IMG/VR virus record: IMGVR_UViG_3300028416_000501
Location: 1-64,000 of that record
DNA from: a virus
Direction: 5' to 3' (one strand)
Length of the DNA: 64,000 nucleotides
Under the pieces are notes generated by a model. It was not told the DNA's origin. It saw only the letters and a list, made by a program, of their open reading frames with translations, and did no database searches. The position numbers were made by a program, and so were the translations under genes. This document shows positions 7,109 through 47,053 of this stretch, in pieces. The number at the start of each line of letters is the position of its first letter. Positions within the stretch are counted from its first letter, which is position 1.

Positions 7109-8287
7109 ATGACAGACAAATATTGCATATACACAAACAACTTTACATTCGTTGACAACGACGGCTATGTAGCGTTATGTTGTAAAAATCTAAAAAACAA
7201 ATTATCCAATTATCACATAAAAGATTATAAACTTAGTGAAATATGGAATAGTCCCGAAATGCACGCCGTCAGAGCAGAAATAGCCTCCGGTGGTGAACCT
7301 AATGGTTGTTTTAAATGTTACGATCCCGAAAGAGATGGAATACGTAGTTTTAGACAAAAAGCATTAGGAATGATTAATAGAGGAATTCCATTTGAAGATG
7401 AAAAAATACATGCACTTGATTTAAGATTAGGTAACGTATGTAACTTGTCATGTGTTATGTGTTTTGCTGGTAATAGTAATAAAATATTACATCAACACAA
7501 ATCAATGGCTGAACATTTTGATTGGAAAGAAGGCAGACTAGAAAAAGAAGCAGTTAAGTATCACAAAAGCAATTACGACTGGAGTGATGATCCGCAAGCA
7601 TGGGATAACATTATTAGCAGTGTAGATAAAAATCTAAAGCATGTTTATCTAGCAGGTGGTGAACCTTTTTATCTTAAAAACTTTCCAACAACAGTACAAC
7701 GTCTAGGCAGCTTGGCTCCTGGTGCTAGATTTGTTATTAATACAAATGGCACAAGACTGTTAAGAGAAAAAGATTTAAAACAACTAAAAACAGTGGAAAA
7801 TGTATTCCTAAGATTTAGTGTAGACGGTTGGGGCGCCGCAGATGAGTGGACTAGGCAAGATACAGTGTGGGAAGAAAAACTACAAGTAATGGATCAGTAC
7901 TATAATCACTTTAAATTAAAAGTGTGGGACATTACAGCTAATAGTTTAAGTGTAAGGCACATACCTACACTTATCAAACATTTATGGGAAAAATACCCAA
8001 ATGCAAAAGTACAAATTCGTCCAGTTGTTAATAAAACCGAAGTTCTTATGGAAAACATTCCAGATAGATTTAAAGCAGAATCATTGCGTTTCTTTGAAGA
8101 AAATAAACTAAGACTCGAAGGAGTTGATCATGTTATAAATGAAATGCGTAAACCATTTAATAATGATATGAAACGTAAACATACAGTAAGACATTTTGTA
8201 AACTATTACGATACACATGGAGTAGTTACTCTAGATAGTTTTGATCCTGAGTTAGCAGAATGGATCAATAGCGATGCAGAAGAATAG
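7109..8287 (+). CDS. Radical SAM enzyme, N-terminal twitch type
   Basis: 392 aa. The radical SAM cluster motif CNLSCVMC (C111, C115, C118) would bind the 4Fe-4S cluster that cleaves S-adenosylmethionine, and YLAGGEPF supplies the SAM-binding GGEP. In front of the core lies a second cysteine set: C6, C24-C25 and C67-x2-C70, followed by D-G-x-R-S-F-R. This matches the twitch-type auxiliary-cluster domain placed at the N-terminus. The substrate is unknown. The gene follows its own strong promoter and overlaps the next radical SAM gene by 14 bases. Confidence 0.9.
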   Translation: MTDKYCIYTNNFTFVDNDGYVALCCKNLKNKLSNYHIKDYKLSEIWNSPEMHAVRAEIASGGEPNGCFKCYDPERDGIRSFRQKALGMINRGIPFEDEKIHALDLRLGNVCNLSCVMCFAGNSNKILHQHKSMAEHFDWKEGRLEKEAVKYHKSNYDWSDDPQAWDNIISSVDKNLKHVYLAGGEPFYLKNFPTTVQRLGSLAPGARFVINTNGTRLLREKDLKQLKTVENVFLRFSVDGWGAADEWTRQDTVWEEKLQVMDQYYNHFKLKVWDITANSLSVRHIPTLIKHLWEKYPNAKVQIRPVVNKTEVLMENIPDRFKAESLRFFEENKLRLEGVDHVINEMRKPFNNDMKRKHTVRHFVNYYDTHGVVTLDSFDPELAEWINSDAEE

Positions 8288-9500
8288 TTTTTGTTCCATT
8301 CCTTGGATACACGCCGCAACTAAGACAAACGGAACTAGTCGAGTTTGCTGTTTAATGAGTAATCACGATAGTGGCAACGGCGGGCTTACTGGACAAAGTT
8401 TTAAAACTCATACAATAGAAGAAATACATAACAGTGAATTTACACGTAAGATTCGTAAACAATTTTTAGCAGGTGAAAAGCCAGCAGAGTGTAATACATG
8501 TTGGGTTAAGGAAGATAATGGTGGTCAAAGCAGGCGTACATTTACTAATAGGATGTATAAAGAATTTGATTACGATAAAGCAGTACAAGTAACAGATGTA
8601 GACGGCACTACAACACAGATGCCCATATATTGGGATTTAAGGTTTGGTAACTTATGCAATTTAAAATGTGTAATGTGCGGACCTCAAAGCAGCAGTATGT
8701 GGTACAAAGACTGGGCAAAAGTTCACTCCACTGATCATTTTTACGACAGCGGTACAAAAATCAACATTTCGGACGTATCCAAACAAAACAGGAAAGATCG
8801 TGAATCGGATTATGATTGGTGGGAAAGTGAACACTTTTGGGAACAGTTAGATACACACAAGGAACAACTACAACACGTTTACTTAGTAGGTGGTGAGCCT
8901 ATGTTAGTAGAACCTCATTATAAATTTTTACAAAAGCTAATAGACAGTAATATAAGTAAAAATGTAGTACTGGAGTACGATACAAATATCACAAATGTAC
9001 ATCAACGTGCAATTGATCAATGGAAACATTTTAAAAAGTTAATGCTTAGGGTAAGCATAGATGATTTTGGTGAGCAGAATGATTATATACGTTTTCCTAG
9101 TAAATGGTATAAACTAAATGAAAATATACAACGTATCAAAGAGCTTATACCAAATACACAAATAGAAATAAGTGTTACTTGGCAAATGCTTAATGCATTC
9201 ACAATATTAAACTTATTAGATCATTTTAATAATTATCATATTAATATAAGAATACTATCACATCCTGCACATATGGATGTAAAGCACTTACCAAAACAAG
9301 CAAAATTAGATATTATAAATATGTATAATAGTTCTGTACATAAAGATAAACTAAAACATTTAATAAATTATCTGAATAATACATTAGACTACGATGGTAA
9401 TCCATATGATTGTATGATTTTCTTAGAAAAGTTAGATGAAATACGAGGCACAGATTGGAAAAAAACGTTTATTGAATTACATAAATCGATAAATACTTAA
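8274..9500 (+). CDS. Radical SAM enzyme, N-terminal twitch type
   Basis: 408 aa. N-terminal cysteines C7, C25-C26 and C73-x2-C76 (CNTCWVKEDNGGQSRR) precede the core CNLKCVMC (C128, C132, C135), and YLVGGEPM is the SAM-binding motif. Translation is probably coupled to the gene upstream, which it overlaps by 14 bases. The last ~30 residues (FLEKLDEIRGTDW) resemble the LD..RG tail shared by the paralogues at 43.7-64 kb, so this pair belongs to the same expansion although it lies 35 kb away on the other strand. Confidence 0.9.
   Translation: MQKNSFCSIPWIHAATKTNGTSRVCCLMSNHDSGNGGLTGQSFKTHTIEEIHNSEFTRKIRKQFLAGEKPAECNTCWVKEDNGGQSRRTFTNRMYKEFDYDKAVQVTDVDGTTTQMPIYWDLRFGNLCNLKCVMCGPQSSSMWYKDWAKVHSTDHFYDSGTKINISDVSKQNRKDRESDYDWWESEHFWEQLDTHKEQLQHVYLVGGEPMLVEPHYKFLQKLIDSNISKNVVLEYDTNITNVHQRAIDQWKHFKKLMLRVSIDDFGEQNDYIRFPSKWYKLNENIQRIKELIPNTQIEISVTWQMLNAFTILNLLDHFNNYHINIRILSHPAHMDVKHLPKQAKLDIINMYNSSVHKDKLKHLINYLNNTLDYDGNPYDCMIFLEKLDEIRGTDWKKTFIELHKSINT
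9488..9496 (+). promoter_or_regulatory. Candidate late promoter box (GATAAATAC)
   Basis: GATAAATAC lies 22 bases upstream of the ATG at 9518 and inside the end of the radical SAM gene. It fits the T4-like late -10 consensus and would drive the head-type gene that follows. Confidence 0.5.
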
Positions 9501-17987: not shown

Positions 17988-19109
17988 TTGATTGATAAGA
18001 TAAATGCAATATGGGGCATAGATAATAATACAAGTAACTTAGATAAGTTTACAGGTTACGAACATCTATACGATAAGTTTGACACTTATACAAAAGAAGT
18101 ATATTATGCAAACCCAGAACAAACCATACAAGAAGTGTATGATTTATATCGTAGTGTAAACCTTGTTCCAATTACATACTTTACAGAGCAAGGAATGATT
18201 GATGAACTCAAGCATTTCAAAAGCAGAGGCTATAATCACGTAACAGATAATGTTCAAGGACTAGGCAATAACGCAGGTTCCTCTATTGGAAGATTTTTGT
18301 TTCCTAATATGATGACTGCTGAACCAAAAGGCAGAGGCTCAAACAGTTTACGAGATAGGTTCTTAGATGAGAAAAAACTTAAAAGAGCAATACGCATTTG
18401 TTTTGAATTCAGAGACAGTAACAAACTTGTGTACCCAATGTCGTTGAGAACTGCATTAGAATTAGTTACTGGAGAGAATGTTACTAACTTTAAAGCCCAA
18501 CACGCCAGAAGTATTGTAGAACATTTGTGTCCTGTTATGTGGGGCAGAGTATATGACTACAGTATGGGTTTTGGTGGCAGACTGTTAGGAGTAAGTGCAA
18601 GTAATATGAACTACACTTATATTGGAACAGATCCTAACACAGAAACATTTGCTTATTTAGAATACTTAAATGAACTATTGGGTGGACCTGGAAAAGACAA
18701 TGAACTATATTGTAGTACAAGTCAAGATTATCAATGCGAAGATATTGATTTAGCATTTAGTAGCCCACCTTATTTTAACTTAGAAAAATACAGTGATGAA
18801 CCTACACAGTGTATGGTAGAGTTTGACAACCTTGATCAATGGTTTGAAGGATACGCAGTACCAACAATGCAAAACATATACAATGGATTAAACAGTGATG
18901 GTATCTTTGCAACAAACATTGCAGACTATAAAACATATGGACAAAAAGAACCTATCTTAGTTGTAGACCGTTGGATCGAAACTGCTGAAAAGATTGGATT
19001 CAAACATACTAACACAATTAAAATGTTACTAAGCACACGACCTGGTGTTGGTAACGATCGTAAAGAAGGTAGACAAAAGTGGGAAGGAGTATACGTTTTT
19101 GGAAAATAA
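17988..19109 (+). CDS. DNA methyltransferase-like protein (SPPY type)
   Basis: 373 aa starting at TTG (17988); no ATG lies nearby and the gap to the previous gene is only 2 bases. The N-terminal half is unassigned. In the C-terminal half, a glycine-containing SAM-binding region (GFGGRLLGVSAS...YIGTDPN) is followed by the catalytic motif SSPPYF (about residues 257-262). This indicates an amino-methyltransferase of adenine N6 or cytosine N4. Possible roles are protection of phage DNA or modification control. It overlaps the next gene. Confidence 0.75.
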   Translation: MIDKINAIWGIDNNTSNLDKFTGYEHLYDKFDTYTKEVYYANPEQTIQEVYDLYRSVNLVPITYFTEQGMIDELKHFKSRGYNHVTDNVQGLGNNAGSSIGRFLFPNMMTAEPKGRGSNSLRDRFLDEKKLKRAIRICFEFRDSNKLVYPMSLRTALELVTGENVTNFKAQHARSIVEHLCPVMWGRVYDYSMGFGGRLLGVSASNMNYTYIGTDPNTETFAYLEYLNELLGGPGKDNELYCSTSQDYQCEDIDLAFSSPPYFNLEKYSDEPTQCMVEFDNLDQWFEGYAVPTMQNIYNGLNSDGIFATNIADYKTYGQKEPILVVDRWIETAEKIGFKHTNTIKMLLSTRPGVGNDRKEGRQKWEGVYVFGK

Positions 19110-20343
19110 AGTACTAGTACAAAACAAACTGTTAAAACGTGCAACTCCTGAAAATACTTATTGCACAAGTCCATGGAACGAAATTCATATTCATGCTACA
19201 GGTAAAGTTAGAATGTGTTGCCAACATCATGGAATAGATAAAAATATCAATGATGTAACATTATCAGAAGCATTTAATAGCGACGAATATCGGACTGCAA
19301 GAAAAGAAGTTATGTCTAATATATGGCCTAAAGGATGCGGCCAATGTGTTAAAGCAGAATCACATTCCGGATTTAGTATGCGTTATATGAATACAGAATT
19401 AGTAAATGATGCTAAACGCTGGCACCAAACATTTGGTTTACCCAACACAATTCAAAAAATAGGAATAGATTTTAGTAATGCATGTAATTTAAGATGTACA
19501 ATTTGTGACCCTAACAAAAGCACAGGCTGGTACAAAGATGCCAAAATGCTACATAATGCATTAGGAGAAAAAGAATCCTGGAGAGCATATAATCATGCAT
19601 CAGACAAACCTTATGGGATATCGGTAGATTTTGTTGATAAGAATTTAACAACTTTATTAAATGCAAAACATATAGAGTGTGGCGGCGGCGAGCCTTTTTA
19701 TATGCCACAGTTTCTTTATCTAGTAGATAAGCTAATTGAACATGATTATAAAGGTCGTTTAAAAATTATAACAAACGCAACATTGCTCAAAGAAGAAATG
19801 TTAGAAAAACTAAAAAATATTAATGCTTCTTTTGTAGTAAGCATGGACGGAACAGGACATGTATATCCGTATATGAGACCAAGTACACCATTTGGGAAAT
19901 ACAGTTGGGAAGAAATTGAACAGAAATTGTTCAATATATTTGATAACTATCATTTAAATATATCTTATACTCCAAACATTCTTAATATTTATAATATACC
20001 AGATTATTTAGAATGGCTAAAACATAAACTTATACCAAGAAAAGTTAATAATGTTTATACTAAAGATAGATTTTTTAATGAATGTGTTACTTCACCAAAT
20101 TATTTGCGTATTGCAGTACACCCAGATGAAGATTACAAACATAGATTAGCAGACATGTTAGAAGCAAGAAGTGACGGGGATCACTTTAGTGATATCATAA
20201 TGCAATGTAGAAAAACAAGAACAGATAAAGAAATAGATGATTGGAAATTCTTTTGTAAGACTACTGATCTTCTTGACAAACATAGAAAAACAAGTATAAT
20301 TAAGTATGTACCCAAATTAGAGAAATATTGGATTAAAGAATGA
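19099..20343 (+). CDS. Radical SAM enzyme, N-terminal twitch type
   Basis: 414 aa. I place the start at TTG 19099: AAGGAG lies 9 bases upstream, and the longer frame from 19045 runs deep into the methylase gene. Cysteines C22, C40-C41 and C80-x2-C83 form the N-terminal auxiliary set. CNLRCTIC (C129, C133, C136) is the radical SAM site and GGGEPF the SAM motif. The C-terminus (WKFFCKTTDLLDKHR...PKLEKYW) matches the tail of the minus-strand paralogues. It overlaps the DNA polymerase gene by ATGA. Confidence 0.85.
   Translation: MENKVLVQNKLLKRATPENTYCTSPWNEIHIHATGKVRMCCQHHGIDKNINDVTLSEAFNSDEYRTARKEVMSNIWPKGCGQCVKAESHSGFSMRYMNTELVNDAKRWHQTFGLPNTIQKIGIDFSNACNLRCTICDPNKSTGWYKDAKMLHNALGEKESWRAYNHASDKPYGISVDFVDKNLTTLLNAKHIECGGGEPFYMPQFLYLVDKLIEHDYKGRLKIITNATLLKEEMLEKLKNINASFVVSMDGTGHVYPYMRPSTPFGKYSWEEIEQKLFNIFDNYHLNISYTPNILNIYNIPDYLEWLKHKLIPRKVNNVYTKDRFFNECVTSPNYLRIAVHPDEDYKHRLADMLEARSDGDHFSDIIMQCRKTRTDKEIDDWKFFCKTTDLLDKHRKTSIIKYVPKLEKYWIKE
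20273..20300 (+). promoter_or_regulatory. Sigma70-type promoter before DNA polymerase
   Basis: TTGACA (20273-20278), 16-base spacer, TATAAT (20295-20300) inside the 3' end of the radical SAM gene, 39 bases upstream of the polymerase ATG. It would allow the polymerase to be made independently of the methylase and radical SAM genes. Confidence 0.65.
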
Positions 20344-40359: not shown

Positions 40360-40614
40360 ATGAGACAGATACAAATTGATAAAAGTTTAGATTATTATGG
40401 GGAACAAATATCATATAAAGTCTCAGGAACTGTAGAAGGGGTTCAGCAATTAGTAAAAGAATATCAACCTAAAAAAGTAATATTTACTGAAACAAGTAGA
40501 TATAAAGACTTTGACTCTTGCCTTGATTTTGTTGCTGGCACATGGGTTCAGGTTTATTTTTTGTTCGATGAAGAACAAGCGATGCTTTTTCGTTTATCTA
40601 AAAAAATTAGATAA
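40360..40614 (+). CDS. Small hypothetical protein, 84 aa
   Basis: Starts with ATG after a weak ribosome site. An alpha/beta pattern is seen (QISYKVSGTVEGVQQLV, KKVIFTETSRYKDFD, WVQVYFLFDEEQAMLFRL). No family is recognised. Its stop overlaps the late-type box at 40610, marking a change of transcription unit. Confidence 0.55.
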   Translation: MRQIQIDKSLDYYGEQISYKVSGTVEGVQQLVKEYQPKKVIFTETSRYKDFDSCLDFVAGTWVQVYFLFDEEQAMLFRLSKKIR

Positions 40615-40617
40615 ATA
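40610..40617 (+). promoter_or_regulatory. Candidate late promoter box (GATAAATA)
   Basis: GATAAATA 30 bases before the ATG at 40648, with an AAAGGAAAGAG ribosome site between. It suggests that the MotA/TolQ-like cassette is transcribed late. Confidence 0.5.
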
Positions 40618-40647: not shown

Positions 40648-41088
40648 ATGAATAAGAGATTTTTAGTATGGTGGTTGATTGTTGTTGTACAATTTATTGG
40701 ATTAGGGACAGCAGTATATTACAATGCTATTCCATTCTTGTTAGAAAATGACTCAACTAAATTGAGCTTTGCAATTATAACTATGTGGTTTGCTGCAACA
40801 GCAAGCATTGGTTATAGAAGTTTAAAAGAAAGAACAGATTTTGAGACACCGTGGTTTATAGGCGAGGCCTGTATGACAGTAGGTATGGTAGGAACCGTTA
40901 TTGGATTTATGCTTATGCTAGGAAGTAGCTTTGCAGAAATTGATCCATCAAACGTTGATAGCATGAAGCGTGTTATTACTGACATGGCTTCTGGTATGAG
41001 TACAGCATTACTTACAACACTATGTGGTTTGGTTGCTAGTTTGTTTGTTAAAGTGCAAGTAATTATACAAGAGCAAGAGTATGTCTAA
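40648..41088 (+). CDS. MotA/TolQ/ExbB-like proton-channel membrane protein
   Basis: 146 aa with four predicted membrane helices (about 7-27, 40-60, 77-97, 113-135). The last two carry GMVGTVIGFMLML and GMSTALLTTLCGLVASL, the conserved pore helices of the MotA/TolQ/ExbB family (G-x-x-GTV-x-G; L-x-T-T-x-x-G-L). It is shorter than cellular members. It overlaps the TolR-like gene by 8 bases. Partners of this kind use ion flow to do mechanical work. Confidence 0.8.
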   Translation: MNKRFLVWWLIVVVQFIGLGTAVYYNAIPFLLENDSTKLSFAIITMWFAATASIGYRSLKERTDFETPWFIGEACMTVGMVGTVIGFMLMLGSSFAEIDPSNVDSMKRVITDMASGMSTALLTTLCGLVASLFVKVQVIIQEQEYV

Positions 41089-41686
41089 TAGACGTCAAGG
41101 TTCAAATTTAGCATTTAACGATTTATTATTTAATGTCCTTATTGGATTTGTTATGCTGTTTGTTATTGCATTTCTTCTCATAAATCCTATTGCCAAAAAA
41201 GCAGATATTCCAGTTAAAGCAGAATTTATAATTGTTCTAGAATGGGACGAAGATGCCAGTGACGACTTAGATTTATGGATGCAGTTAGATAAAAATAAAC
41301 CTGTTGGATTTACTAACAGAGAAGATACTCCATTACATTTAGATAGAGACGATTTAGGTACAACTAATGATCGTATTGTTGTTGATGGGAAAGTTATCTT
41401 TATAAAAACAAACAGAGAAACAATAACAATACGAGGTATTGTTCCAGGAGAGTATTTTGTTACGGTACATGCTTATTCTAAAAAAGCAGCAAATGTTCCA
41501 TATACTGTTACTGTTATGAAAGTTAACCCATTTAGACAACTTTACAGTTTAACAGGAGAGTTTTTAGTGAACAGAGAAATACAAAGATTGCCAGCATTTA
41601 CAGTAGATGCTAACGGCAGAGTAACAAGTGTATTCCAACACTTTAAAGATATAGTACCATCAAGAAGCGGAGTAGCACCACAATGA
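41081..41686 (+). CDS. TolR/MotB-like single-span protein with beta domain
   Basis: 201 aa. The N-terminus LAFNDLLFNVLIGFVMLFVI has the short cytoplasmic segment, an Asp just before the helix and a single span, like TolR, ExbD and MotB. The periplasmic part is beta-rich (VVDGKVIFIKTNRETITIRGI, GEYFVTVHAYSKKAANVPYT) and resembles an immunoglobulin-like or YfaP-type domain rather than OmpA. It would pair with the channel protein upstream. Confidence 0.7.
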   Translation: MSNRRQGSNLAFNDLLFNVLIGFVMLFVIAFLLINPIAKKADIPVKAEFIIVLEWDEDASDDLDLWMQLDKNKPVGFTNREDTPLHLDRDDLGTTNDRIVVDGKVIFIKTNRETITIRGIVPGEYFVTVHAYSKKAANVPYTVTVMKVNPFRQLYSLTGEFLVNREIQRLPAFTVDANGRVTSVFQHFKDIVPSRSGVAPQ

Positions 41687-42300
41687 TAATTTATATTTCA
41701 ATAGGACTAATTTTTGCACTATCAGTACTTACAGTGTATTCACTAATACAACTAGGTAAAAACAACATATTAACTTTTTTCTTAATTCCGTTGGCCCTTG
41801 TTGCAAGTATATTCACAGGTTATACACTTTTTGCATTACAAGGAACACCAATTGACGACATGCCAGAAGGTCAAGTAGAAGTTATTTGGGTAGAGATACA
41901 GAAGCCTAATATATACTTTTTAGTTAGACCAGCAGGTGAAACACAACCAGTTTATCACCGTATTCCATACACTAACAAAAATGCAGATAAAATGGCAGAA
42001 CTTCAGAAAAAAGCAGATGGCGGCAGACCAGTAACTGGTGAGTTTAAAGAAATGGAAACCGGCAAAACTGATTTAAGTAGAAACGAAGATATACGCTTTG
42101 ATGAAATAGAAAGAAGTCCATTGCCTACAAAGAAACCAGTACTCAGAGATATGGGAGTTGATGAGAACTTAATTAACGAAATACACAATCAAGATGTAGG
42201 TGATAATACTGCTAGAGATTACAGTCCAATAGGCAGTAATATTATTGATCCCGAAGAAAGTATGAAATCTTGTGATACACATTTTGGTTGCGGACCATAA
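41683..42300 (+). CDS. Third gene of the channel cassette, membrane-anchored protein
   Basis: 205 aa, ATGA overlap with the TolR-like gene. Two membrane helices (about 2-22 and 30-52) are followed by a soluble region with a strand pair (VEVIWVEIQKPNIYFLVRP) and a long charged disordered tail ending in CDTHFGCGP. No homologue is recognised. Gene coupling makes it a likely part of the same membrane complex. Confidence 0.65.
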   Translation: MIIYISIGLIFALSVLTVYSLIQLGKNNILTFFLIPLALVASIFTGYTLFALQGTPIDDMPEGQVEVIWVEIQKPNIYFLVRPAGETQPVYHRIPYTNKNADKMAELQKKADGGRPVTGEFKEMETGKTDLSRNEDIRFDEIERSPLPTKKPVLRDMGVDENLINEIHNQDVGDNTARDYSPIGSNIIDPEESMKSCDTHFGCGP

Positions 42301-44899: not shown

Positions 44900-45752
44900 T
44901 ATTGTAATTCTTCGTTATATAGTTTACCCATGTATTTATACCTTGCTTAGTGCTGTACATTTTCTCGTCAGGCTTAATGTTTTTAAAATCTTCTAAATTA
45001 AAATAAAAGAATGTTGTTTTTGTTTCTAACCATTTCTCAATTAAACCTGCTAATATGGAGTGTGTTTCATTTGTAAAATGTGCAGGCCTAACATCGTAAG
45101 ATGGGAACAGATCTTTATCCCATCCTAATATTGTATTTTCAAATTTAACAAGATCAAGCAATGAATGTACTTCTGGTCTTAGTATATTTTCATTTGTATT
45201 AGGATCATACCAATGAAATCCTTTTATAATCTTAGCGTCTGGTCTTAGTCTTGTAACCTTATCCAATATTAGTTTGGCAAATGTATTTTCTCTTTCTGTA
45301 AATCCATTATGCACATGAAGTTCATGCCAGTTTGCTATTTTTGAATACATATGATGTTTGTACATTGAATTGTCATCTTTGAGTTTTGCATATTTATTAG
45401 CCTCATTATTTGCCATTTCTATACTAGTCGAATGAGCATTATCATCATTTGGCCCACGATTATCTTCTTCCCAATAATCATGCATAAAGGTTAATCTATT
45501 GTTTGAATTTGTTAATACAAAGATAACTTGCTCATACTGTTGATGATACTTTTCAAACTGCATAAAACTGTAATATAAATCAGTTCCACCAAGTCCATAC
45601 GAATCCGCATCTAGTAGATCTATCCATGTTTTAAAAATACTATTATTAAATAAATTAATTTGCCTCTGAGTTTCCATGATTGATTGGTGCGGTACTATGA
45701 CTTTGCTTTCTGCAAAACTATCTCCAAATACACCTATTTTTTTACTGAACAT
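44889..45752 (-). CDS. SGNH-hydrolase-like protein
   Basis: 287 aa. KIGVFGDSFAES is the classic GDS nucleophile motif. YGLGGTDLYYSF matches the Gly block, FVLTNSNNRLTF the Asn block, and HFTNETH near the C-terminus may provide the catalytic His. It lies between radical SAM genes with 1- and 11-base junctions. Esterase or acyl transferase activity on a modified product is possible. Confidence 0.75.
   Translation of the reverse strand: MFSKKIGVFGDSFAESKVIVPHQSIMETQRQINLFNNSIFKTWIDLLDADSYGLGGTDLYYSFMQFEKYHQQYEQVIFVLTNSNNRLTFMHDYWEEDNRGPNDDNAHSTSIEMANNEANKYAKLKDDNSMYKHHMYSKIANWHELHVHNGFTERENTFAKLILDKVTRLRPDAKIIKGFHWYDPNTNENILRPEVHSLLDLVKFENTILGWDKDLFPSYDVRPAHFTNETHSILAGLIEKWLETKTTFFYFNLEDFKNIKPDEKMYSTKQGINTWVNYITKNYNNDK
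44932..44940 (-). promoter_or_regulatory. Candidate late promoter box, minus strand (TATAAATAC)
   Basis: Reads TATAAATAC on the minus strand, an exact T4 late -10 match, inside the 3' end of the SGNH gene and 32 bases before the radical SAM ATG at 44899. Confidence 0.45.
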
Positions 45753-47053
45753 TATTTTTTCTTATCCATATCTGTTATAGTTTCATTAAATTTAGTAAAT
45801 GCCTCATATTTTTTATCATGCTTGTTATTATCAATACAAGACTGTAACCAACTAATTGCACCATTGATATGTGTTTCAAACATAAACCTTCGTTTAGTTT
45901 CACGTCTTTCGGGGGTCTTTAAGCTATCAAATACCCGTTTTAAGCCGTCTATTCCAGTTTGTAGTTGTTCAGGGCTTAGTACATTAGCATGCAAGAAATC
46001 AGGCCATTGTACGCGGCTTGTATGCCAATTTACCCCTAATTCATATACAATAGCTTCAGCTGTAGCACCTAATTCCATAGCATTCATGCCACTTATACAG
46101 GTAGTTCCTTTAATAACATCTAAGTTATCAAGCTCTCGTTTAACTAATTCAATATTGCTTTTTAATAAATCCCAATCAGATCCTCTACGAATCATATGAT
46201 TAAGATCTTTGTGTCCATCAATACTAATAGTTAATTTAATACTTTTAAATTTTTTCCATAAGTCTATTACATTAGTTTTACCTAGTTTCATAATACTTAA
46301 ATTTGTACTATATTTTAATGTAACATTTTCTGGATGTTTAACACTTTCCAATACACGATAATGTATTGGATCCATTAATGGCTCACCGCCAGCAAATTCT
46401 AATTCATCAACATGTTCCATGAGTTCAACTAGGTGCCCAACAAATTTCTCATCTTTTTCATACAAGTTCATTACTCGAGACGTACGAAGGTTGTTACTAT
46501 CTACAATCTGATCAATATATTTTTGATCTCCTGCACTATAAAATTTAGAAACATTATCCCAATCTGTTACCCACTTTGAACTGTCTTTTGGCCAACACAT
46601 TCTACATTTAAAATTACATACATTACTAAGTTTTAATTCTAGTAAAGGTATTTTAAATTCTACTTCTCTGTTAATTAAATAATGCTTTACATTTTCTCTG
46701 TAAATTTCTTTATCCATTAAATCAGTAAGTCTGTTTAAACGTAAACTAACGATTTCATTATCTTCCATCTTCCAACAATTATTACATTGTGTTGGTTTTT
46801 CTCCAACAATAAGAGCATCACGTATTTCGTTCATGTATTCACTATGCCAGTAATCTTTTAAATCAAAGTCTGTATTCTTTACATTAGGATTTCCATCTTC
46901 GGGTGGTTGTGCTCTACAACAAAGTTTTATCTCACCATGTGGCATTGTACTAATATGTGAAAATGGTAATGGACAAAATGTATCCTTTGTTACAGGTAAT
47001 CCTGCTAATTTAGATTCAGCTCTATCTTTAAATGTATTGTAATTATTCTTCAT
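45752..47053 (-). CDS. Radical SAM enzyme, N-terminal twitch type
   Basis: 433 aa. N-terminal cysteines C27, C45-C46 and C90-x2-C93, then core CNFKCRMC (C146, C150, C153) and EFAGGEPLMDP. The C-terminal tail YEAFTKFNETITDMD aligns with the tails of its paralogues. It overlaps the SPASM-like gene upstream by 11 bases. The enzyme would generate a 5'-deoxyadenosyl radical; the substrate is unknown. Confidence 0.9.
   Translation of the reverse strand: MKNNYNTFKDRAESKLAGLPVTKDTFCPLPFSHISTMPHGEIKLCCRAQPPEDGNPNVKNTDFDLKDYWHSEYMNEIRDALIVGEKPTQCNNCWKMEDNEIVSLRLNRLTDLMDKEIYRENVKHYLINREVEFKIPLLELKLSNVCNFKCRMCWPKDSSKWVTDWDNVSKFYSAGDQKYIDQIVDSNNLRTSRVMNLYEKDEKFVGHLVELMEHVDELEFAGGEPLMDPIHYRVLESVKHPENVTLKYSTNLSIMKLGKTNVIDLWKKFKSIKLTISIDGHKDLNHMIRRGSDWDLLKSNIELVKRELDNLDVIKGTTCISGMNAMELGATAEAIVYELGVNWHTSRVQWPDFLHANVLSPEQLQTGIDGLKRVFDSLKTPERRETKRRFMFETHINGAISWLQSCIDNNKHDKKYEAFTKFNETITDMDKKK

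Follow-up and report, generated by a model that had tools for sequence, protein, structure and literature searches.

The marine virus of bacteria recorded in IMG/VR as IMGVR_UViG_3300028416_000501 carries three linked genes on the plus strand, here called A, B and C, of which the first two very probably encode a stator-type pair of membrane proteins. They lie in the window analysed here, i.e., positions 1 to 64,000 of a record of 79,053 bases, with 34% G+C in the window. All three proteins probably work together in one motor whose periplasmic head is TerD-like, although with less certainty than attaches to the pair. This trio is not specific to phages, but constitutes a three-gene family of many phages and bacterial chromosomes. 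The whole account, namely an ion motor of the stator type, headed by a TerD-like domain, that is shared by cells and phages and serves envelope work linked to pyrroloquinoline quinone (PQQ) and lanthanides, stands about evenly balanced between being right and being wrong.

Gene A (40,648–41,088) encodes a protein of 146 residues that, judged by profile matches, is a member of the MotA/TolQ/ExbB channel family PF01618 with a short cytoplasmic loop. The window protein matches the Pfam model with an expectation value (E) of 6.6e-8 and 32.8 bits (cut-off 22.9), and two cellular A proteins reach 36.6 and 32.9 bits. All 16 rows of an alignment of the window protein and 15 relatives (A2) match PF01618 at E ≤ 1 (best 6.2e-8), the comparison of scores with the cut-off being confined to window A. 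Searched against the PDB, a 16-row A profile retrieves MotA (8gqy, 4.5e-5), ZorA (8qyy, 5e-5), ExbB (7ajq, 1.3e-3) and TolQ (8odt, 3.2e-3). With the NCBIfam models of TolQ, ExbB, MotA and ZorA, window A scores far below the cut-offs and, thus, falls outside these named branches. The four helices initially ascribed to A are present in A of L004, L006, L007 and L008 according to a hydropathy scan, which in the window gives three strong hydrophobic helices and a weak fourth. Conservation was followed across 95 viral loci, 93 of them fetched by B and two by A, which form 57 groups at 85% B identity, and across loci from outside the viral collections. Thr124 in the last helix (codon 41,017–41,019), which is taken to be the pore Thr from its presumed role in TolQ and ExbB, is kept in 56 of the 57 viral groups and in 75/75 other loci. 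Moreover, Asp35, located between helices 1 and 2 (codon 40,750–40,752), is kept in 57/57 viral groups and 70/75 other loci.

The spacing between Asp35 and Gly79, which comprises helix 2 and the cytoplasmic loop, ranges from 37 to 68 residues in 57/57 phage representatives, with medians of 37, 43.5 and 49 in the three phage groups of the tree described below. The median in 60 cellular rows is 87, and only four of these rows stay below 70; a spacing of 61 is found in four cells with small genomes, and values under 70 in seven of eight prophage-like rows. Phage A proteins therefore have a shorter cytoplasmic loop than cellular ones. Because of this shortening, a cytoplasmic rotor is an unlikely output of the system and the periplasm is the plausible working side.

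The partner protein, encoded by gene B (41,081–41,686), is a single-span, axle-like protein of 201 residues with a predicted TerD-like domain. A hydropathy scan gives one membrane helix, which covers residues 8–34 (41,102–41,182) in an AlphaFold2 model (m27677fb3890a; mean pLDDT, the predicted local distance difference test score, of 94–97 for residues 11–30). Near the start of this helix stands Asp14 (codon 41,120–41,122), the stator-type Asp, and the initial annotation was therefore right to describe B as a single-span protein with an Asp at the membrane edge. This residue is present in 57/57 viral groups and 73/78 other loci; among the five cellular exceptions, B of L130, L131 and L158 carries an Asp a few residues earlier, and the divergent B of L180 has several Asp nearby. 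In stators, residues of the type of Asp14 in B and Thr124 in A serve coupling. With both residues conserved, and with the family and structure matches of A to MotA, ZorA, ExbB and TolQ, the reading of A and B as a stator pair is supported.

The TolR/MotB-like nature initially attributed to B is not sustained at the level of sequence. Pfam models of ExbD/TolR and OmpA-like domains match neither window B nor any member among the 10 families of 16 B members, and they do not appear among the 25 families listed of the 41 that match 62 B members. A TolR or MotB identity was thus rejected, also in view of the predicted TerD-like fold. DUF2135 was likewise set aside as a weak match, found in two of 62 members (best 0.026) and in one cellular B (0.017).

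Whereas B modelled alone reached a pLDDT of 62.7, the model from a 62-row alignment reaches 88.8 and comprises one helix followed by a beta-sandwich (residues 47–194, 41,219–41,662). Compared by VIA-align, this model gives Z scores of 11.3 (3ibz), 10.5 (2qng), 10.2 (2qz7) and 9.5 (2kxt) over 131–140 residues to four chains counted as TerD-type, including 2qng, which is titled ‘unknown function protein SAV2460’. The next structural matches are a radial-spoke chain (Z 9.4) and an entry at 6.2. The periplasmic domain of B is thus predicted to be a TerD-like sandwich, with a likeness at the level of the fold only. TerD is a calcium-binding family of tellurite resistance. In B, the residues W55, D62, D64, D90 and E113, four of which are acidic, are invariant in 135/135 sequences and would suit a metal site. 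A Foldseek comparison of the B model with viral models yields five matches at E ≤ 0.001 (best 2.5e-6), all to predicted proteins, whose lengths range from 175 to 1411 residues; one is called a BACON domain-containing protein and the other four are nameless. Separately, the phage family phrog_1735 (673 positions, function unknown) matches the B domain at 2.6e-4 over positions 423–515, and phage proteins of larger size may therefore contain a domain related to it.

Gene C (41,683–42,300) encodes a protein of 205 residues in which a hydropathy scan of the window finds two helices, in agreement with the earlier description of a third membrane protein. In the 53 viral and 67 cellular sequences that passed a helix filter, mean counts of Lys plus Arg are highest in the loop between the helices (1.7 viral, 2.0 cellular) and low before the first helix, where such residues are rare (0.3 and 0.4), with 0.9 and 1.5 in the 15 residues after the second helix. 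This charge pattern hints that the C-terminal part of C is perhaps periplasmic. For window C, Pfam gives only a weak match to DUF2244 (E 0.38) and no family above cut-off, NCBIfam gives no family match, and no TonB/TolA-type match is found in either.

As initially noted, the three open reading frames (ORFs) overlap, by 8 bases between A and B and by 4 bases between B and C. Codon comparison of the window with L001 gives ratios of non-synonymous to synonymous substitution (dN/dS) of ~0.06 for A, ~0.14 for B and ~0.27 for C; all three genes are under purifying selection, A most strongly. Upstream of A, a late-promoter-like box, named after what is assumed to be the T4-type consensus, is present as a string (GATAAATA, 40,610–40,617, plus strand), its ATAAATA core starting 37 nt 5’ of A. 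However, the window contains 21 copies of this core, four of them just 5’ of ORFs against 1.1 expected, a weak enrichment; the late-type box of the initial annotation is thus real as a string, but does not demonstrate the late expression drawn from it.

Searches for the trio in other phages were productive when B was used as the query. No annotated phage was found by tblastn with window A, and B retrieved 29 records, namely 25 of Rhizobium, two of Sinorhizobium and two weak ones of Vibrio. In 13/13 Rhizobium and Sinorhizobium records inspected, A and C flank B, all three being annotated as hypothetical or merely numbered, and in one of these records a homing-endonuclease ORF separates A from B. 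Phage 16-3 carries the trio as the nameless proteins p038, p040 and p042. In IMG/VR, 84 B loci were found and 80 kept. Altogether, A and B are present in 95/95 viral loci and C in 93/95, being absent in L027 (at a contig end) and L078, and the order A-B-C recurs; duplicate loci (L001/L018, L002/L017, L006/L083 and L007/L085) were removed by the grouping. A and B are no more than 60 nt apart in 43/57 viral groups, and B and C in 40 of the 56 that have C, with other ORFs or gaps separating the genes in the remaining groups. Since gene order and spacing recur in other phages, the arrangement is more than chance.

The phage-encoded pair, which the initial annotation had considered unexpected, does exist, but it is not peculiar to this phage, since many other phages and bacterial chromosomes carry it as well. 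B was detected in 61 of 385 alphaproteobacterial genomes sampled (55 strong), in 32 of the 274 sampled from gammaproteobacteria, 30 of them at E<1e-30, and in 19 of 299 genomes sampled across the whole phylum (13 at E<1e-30), and Azospirillum chromids carry the trio. Among 79 loci from outside the viral collections, 72 comprise A, B and C, four A and B, one B and C, and two only B; eight of the 79, of rhizobial origin (L099–L106), are taken as prophages solely because the tree places them with temperate phages. A second set, fetched with longer flanks and sharing part of its loci with the first, is complete in 78/82 cases. A scan of genome contigs gave no locus with a single protein query and 10 loci with an alignment query.

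A concatenated tree of A and B with 130 rows contains three phage groups: one of rhizobial temperate phages together with prophage-like loci, a second that includes other Rhizobium phages, and a large third that includes the window. In this quick tree, four cells with genomes of 0.8–1.1 Mb (L109–L112) fall inside the last, marine phage group. A single pure phage clade is still allowed (approximately unbiased test, p-AU 0.385, 66 rows). The tree leaves out L178, L179, L180, L121, L146 and L175. In L178, L179 and L180, a divergent A accompanies B and no C was found, with two B-like genes in L180; these loci are possibly a distant branch of the family. L121 and L146 (genome G374) have B without a recognised A alongside, and in L121 two B genes stand in tandem near a gene of TIGR03861 (alcohol ABC permease-family). 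In genomes of 1.4 Mb (L119, L120, L147 and L149), an adenine-phosphoribosyltransferase-like gene borders the trio. On the other side of the trio of L119 lies a DUF3108-like ORF, below cut-off, and next to it, on the opposite strand, a run resembling mreB-mreC-mreD-pbp2-rodA, with names assigned by eye.

In cells, the trio is associated with PQQ- and lanthanide-linked genes, in comparisons whose statistics ignore kinship among genomes. PQQ dehydrogenases of TIGR03075 score over the cut-off in 30 of the 55 alphaproteobacterial genomes with a strong B, compared with 60 of the 330 others, including six with weak B matches (Fisher 4.7e-8). TIGR03863 (LutA-like) is matched at E<1e-35 in 36/80 genomes that have B, a set without the prophage-bearing G001 drawn from all such genomes, and in 3/80 controls lacking B, a non-random pick of 54 alpha- and 26 gammaproteobacteria (p 4e-10); over the curated cut-off, the numbers are 22 and 3. 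This gene lies within 21 kb of B in 12/36 cases (0.7 expected) and within 11 kb in 9/36 (0.4 expected), both limits having been chosen after the distances were seen. The trio of L201 is oriented divergently to neighbouring genes, a run encoding a TIGR03863 binding protein, a TIGR03866 propeller, a TIGR03864 ATPase and a TIGR03861 permease (TIGR03861 and TIGR03866 over their cut-offs), which ends with a nameless ORF and is followed by a TonB-receptor-like ORF, incomplete in the stretch; L203 has the same run as far as the nameless ORF, as judged by eye. In L200, genes of TIGR04558 and TIGR03865, both over cut-off, precede A-B-C, and seven genomes related to each other have a PQQ dehydrogenase at ~1.1 kb from B. 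PMC7391723 describes lutA, B, E, F, G and H for lanthanide uptake, and the L201 run resembles these genes, the matching of names being our own. Moreover, the outer-membrane route of lanthanides is given as unresolved in Pseudomonas putida in PMC12997753. On these grounds, the cellular system can be assigned only tentatively, and with less than even odds, to PQQ- and lanthanide-linked envelope work.

Ion flow, a ring-and-axle assembly, a membrane orientation, metal binding, a driven partner and a benefit to the phage may be inferred for the trio as follows. Two B helices are probably encircled by a ring of A copies, which would constitute a compact inner-membrane motor, and ions passing Asp14 of B and Thr124 of A would set A and B in motion relative to each other. 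B would transmit this motion to the periplasm through its TerD-like domain, which probably binds metal, and C, anchored in the membrane, would act as partner or transducer. The chromosomal module of alpha- and gammaproteobacteria would most likely support the PQQ-dependent (Ca or lanthanide) oxidation of alcohols by work at the envelope, e.g., by energising uptake through TonB-dependent receptors or by shifting metal or PQQ within the periplasm. The copy found in phages of proteobacteria is slimmed, and would most likely serve to keep up that envelope function during infection or to redirect it. Leading ideas on what the phage would gain are maintenance of the PQQ/lanthanide envelope function and superinfection exclusion. 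A more specific version, in which a minimal rotary motor of phages with a Ca- or lanthanide-binding TerD-like head, derived from a cellular quinoprotein/lanthanide energiser, powers or hijacks uptake of metal or PQQ across the outer membrane during infection, is regarded with considerable doubt.

Several points weigh against this account, in addition to the limits given above for the association statistics. Structure prediction covers B only, as a single chain, and a plain Foldseek search with the B model gives a best match of only E 1e-3. A comparison of B with five TerD sequences by hhalign yields a probability of 0.3 and a score of 14.0, within the range of controls, since 30 column shuffles reach up to 16.8 and the reversed alignment 13.7. 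With filters off, a hidden Markov model of B matches the same five sequences at a best E of 0.01, under the inclusion threshold, and TerD (PF02342) is absent from the Pfam families listed, both for 16 B members and among 25 of the 41 families for 62 members. Sequence homology of B to TerD is thus not supported, and descent from TerD is not claimed because the profile-profile comparison fails. B of L157 lacks any Asp near the aligned position of Asp14. Although the family leads one to expect the N-terminus of B inside, the net charge before Asp14 is +1.5 in viral and −0.7 in cellular rows, and charge alone leaves the orientation undecided in the latter. As for PQQ, the link is strong in one B clade (21/30) but weak in the Azospirillum-like clade (9/24), the clades being taken from the A and B tree except for G322, which is absent from it. 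Furthermore, 44/80 genomes with B have no strong TIGR03863 match, three of the 12 cases adjoining TIGR03863 are close relatives, and in L201 TIGR03863 and TIGR03864 score just below, and TonB-receptor models far below, their cut-offs. Finally, neither a TonB-receptor barrel nor a PQQ dehydrogenase was found in any of 50 viral records, many of which are fragments.

The trio resembles several known systems and departs from each of them. With ExbB-ExbD and TolQ-TolR it shares PF01618 in A, a single span with an Asp near the helix start in B, a third membrane protein in the cluster and an expected periplasmic output; it differs in the TerD-like head of B, which has no ExbD/TolR match in the families listed, in a two-helix C that lacks a TonB/TolA match, and in a window A below the tolQ and exbB cut-offs of NCBIfam. 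MotA is matched by profile and in the four-helix layout of A, with its loop between helices 2 and 3. However, the cytoplasmic loop of A is small, and smallest in phages, and B has no OmpA-like domain by sequence. The likeness to TerD lies in the predicted fold of the periplasmic part of B, and its acidic motifs look alike by eye, whereas B is membrane-anchored and has no sequence-level match. In several lineages, cellular trios adjoin lut and PQQ genes, but the trio does not figure in the gene list of the Methylorubrum lut cluster given in the available portion of PMC7391723. No description of the trio or of a phage-encoded stator was found in the available parts of the open-licence literature searched, and PMC10460002, PMC10783043 and PMC12429752 contain no mention of TolQ or related terms.

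Among other explanations, superinfection exclusion, one of the roles initially proposed, in which the phage motor would keep other phages out by acting on, or competing with, TonB/Tol energisers or outer-membrane receptors of the host, is rather unlikely. The presence of the trio in temperate phages and prophage-like loci would fit it, and PMC12124388 offers a precedent, proposing that an E. coli phage protein whose fold resembles the C-terminal part of TonB inactivates the PQQ receptor PqqU. However, the named neighbours of chromosomal copies are mostly metabolic genes, the ion-path residues are kept although a mere blocker would not need them, and window C has no TonB-like family match in Pfam. 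A module by which phages defend themselves against competing phages in the manner of Zorya has a still lower probability and is hardly credible: window A matches ZorA models (best 7.7e-7, in a library of defence proteins only), and ZorA is among its top profile matches in the PDB, but these models, of at least 420 residues, are matched over the channel part only by a protein of 146 residues without the long tail, and no ZorB, ZorC, ZorD or ZorE model matches B or C. Membership in Zorya was thus rejected.

An aid to late lysis, energising or collapsing the order of the envelope at the end of infection, also close to an initial proposal, is nearly as improbable as a Zorya-like role. It would agree with the late-like box 5’ of A, whose statistics are weak, and with an endolysin-like family 3.0–5.0 kb 5’ of B in 5/57 groups (L078, L087, L093, L094 and L096), four of which are of rhizobial temperate type; the gene of L087 is GH19, under the Pfam cut-off. 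However, no member of this family was seen close to the trio in the remaining 52 groups, the cell-wall hydrolase gene of the window (PF07486) lies ~15 kb away, most of the neighbours seen are not lysis genes, and chromosomes retain the cellular copies. An alternative in which the proteins form a regulated ion leak or a scaffold and perform no rotary work is unlikely too, if less so; the shortening of the cytoplasmic loop and an output that is still hypothetical leave room for it, but the two coupling residues, whose stator roles are presumed, are conserved along with a periplasmic domain invariant at several positions.

Other genes accompany the trio in viral loci. A trypsin-like protease family occurs within ~5 kb in 13/57 groups (L003, L006, L010, L068, L069, L081, L082, L084, L086, L087, L093, L094 and L096), that of L093 being PF13365 (Trypsin_2), and a ClpP family in 12/57. 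A gene for an SbmA/BacA-family transporter lies 3’ of C on the same strand in 6/57 groups (L021, L023, L025, L026, L028 and L038), at 0.3 kb or less from C in four loci and ~1.1 kb in two, with a PF05992 match of 2.7e-139 in L025. A theme of envelope functions would fit both the trypsin-like and the SbmA genes. Elsewhere, the window codes for a family B DNA polymerase and for an AAA+ ATPase with a weak match, below cut-off, to the T4 clamp-loader lid. It also has about a dozen radical-SAM-like ORFs, many in tandem (7109–9500, 19,045–20,343 and, on the minus strand, 43,733–63,999). The two tested, 7109–8287 (also SPASM) and 45,752–47,053, match PF04055, and the rest were judged by eye.

If the reading of the trio as an ion motor is true, these genes would represent a new branch of the small set of ion-driven stators, distinguished by its TerD-like head and an additional third subunit, and found in phages. 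In bacteria, the system would be a candidate for energising envelope functions linked to PQQ and lanthanides. Since rhizobiophage 16-3 carries the trio, its role in infection is directly testable, and the phage copies with their shortened loop could rank among the simplest stators to study.

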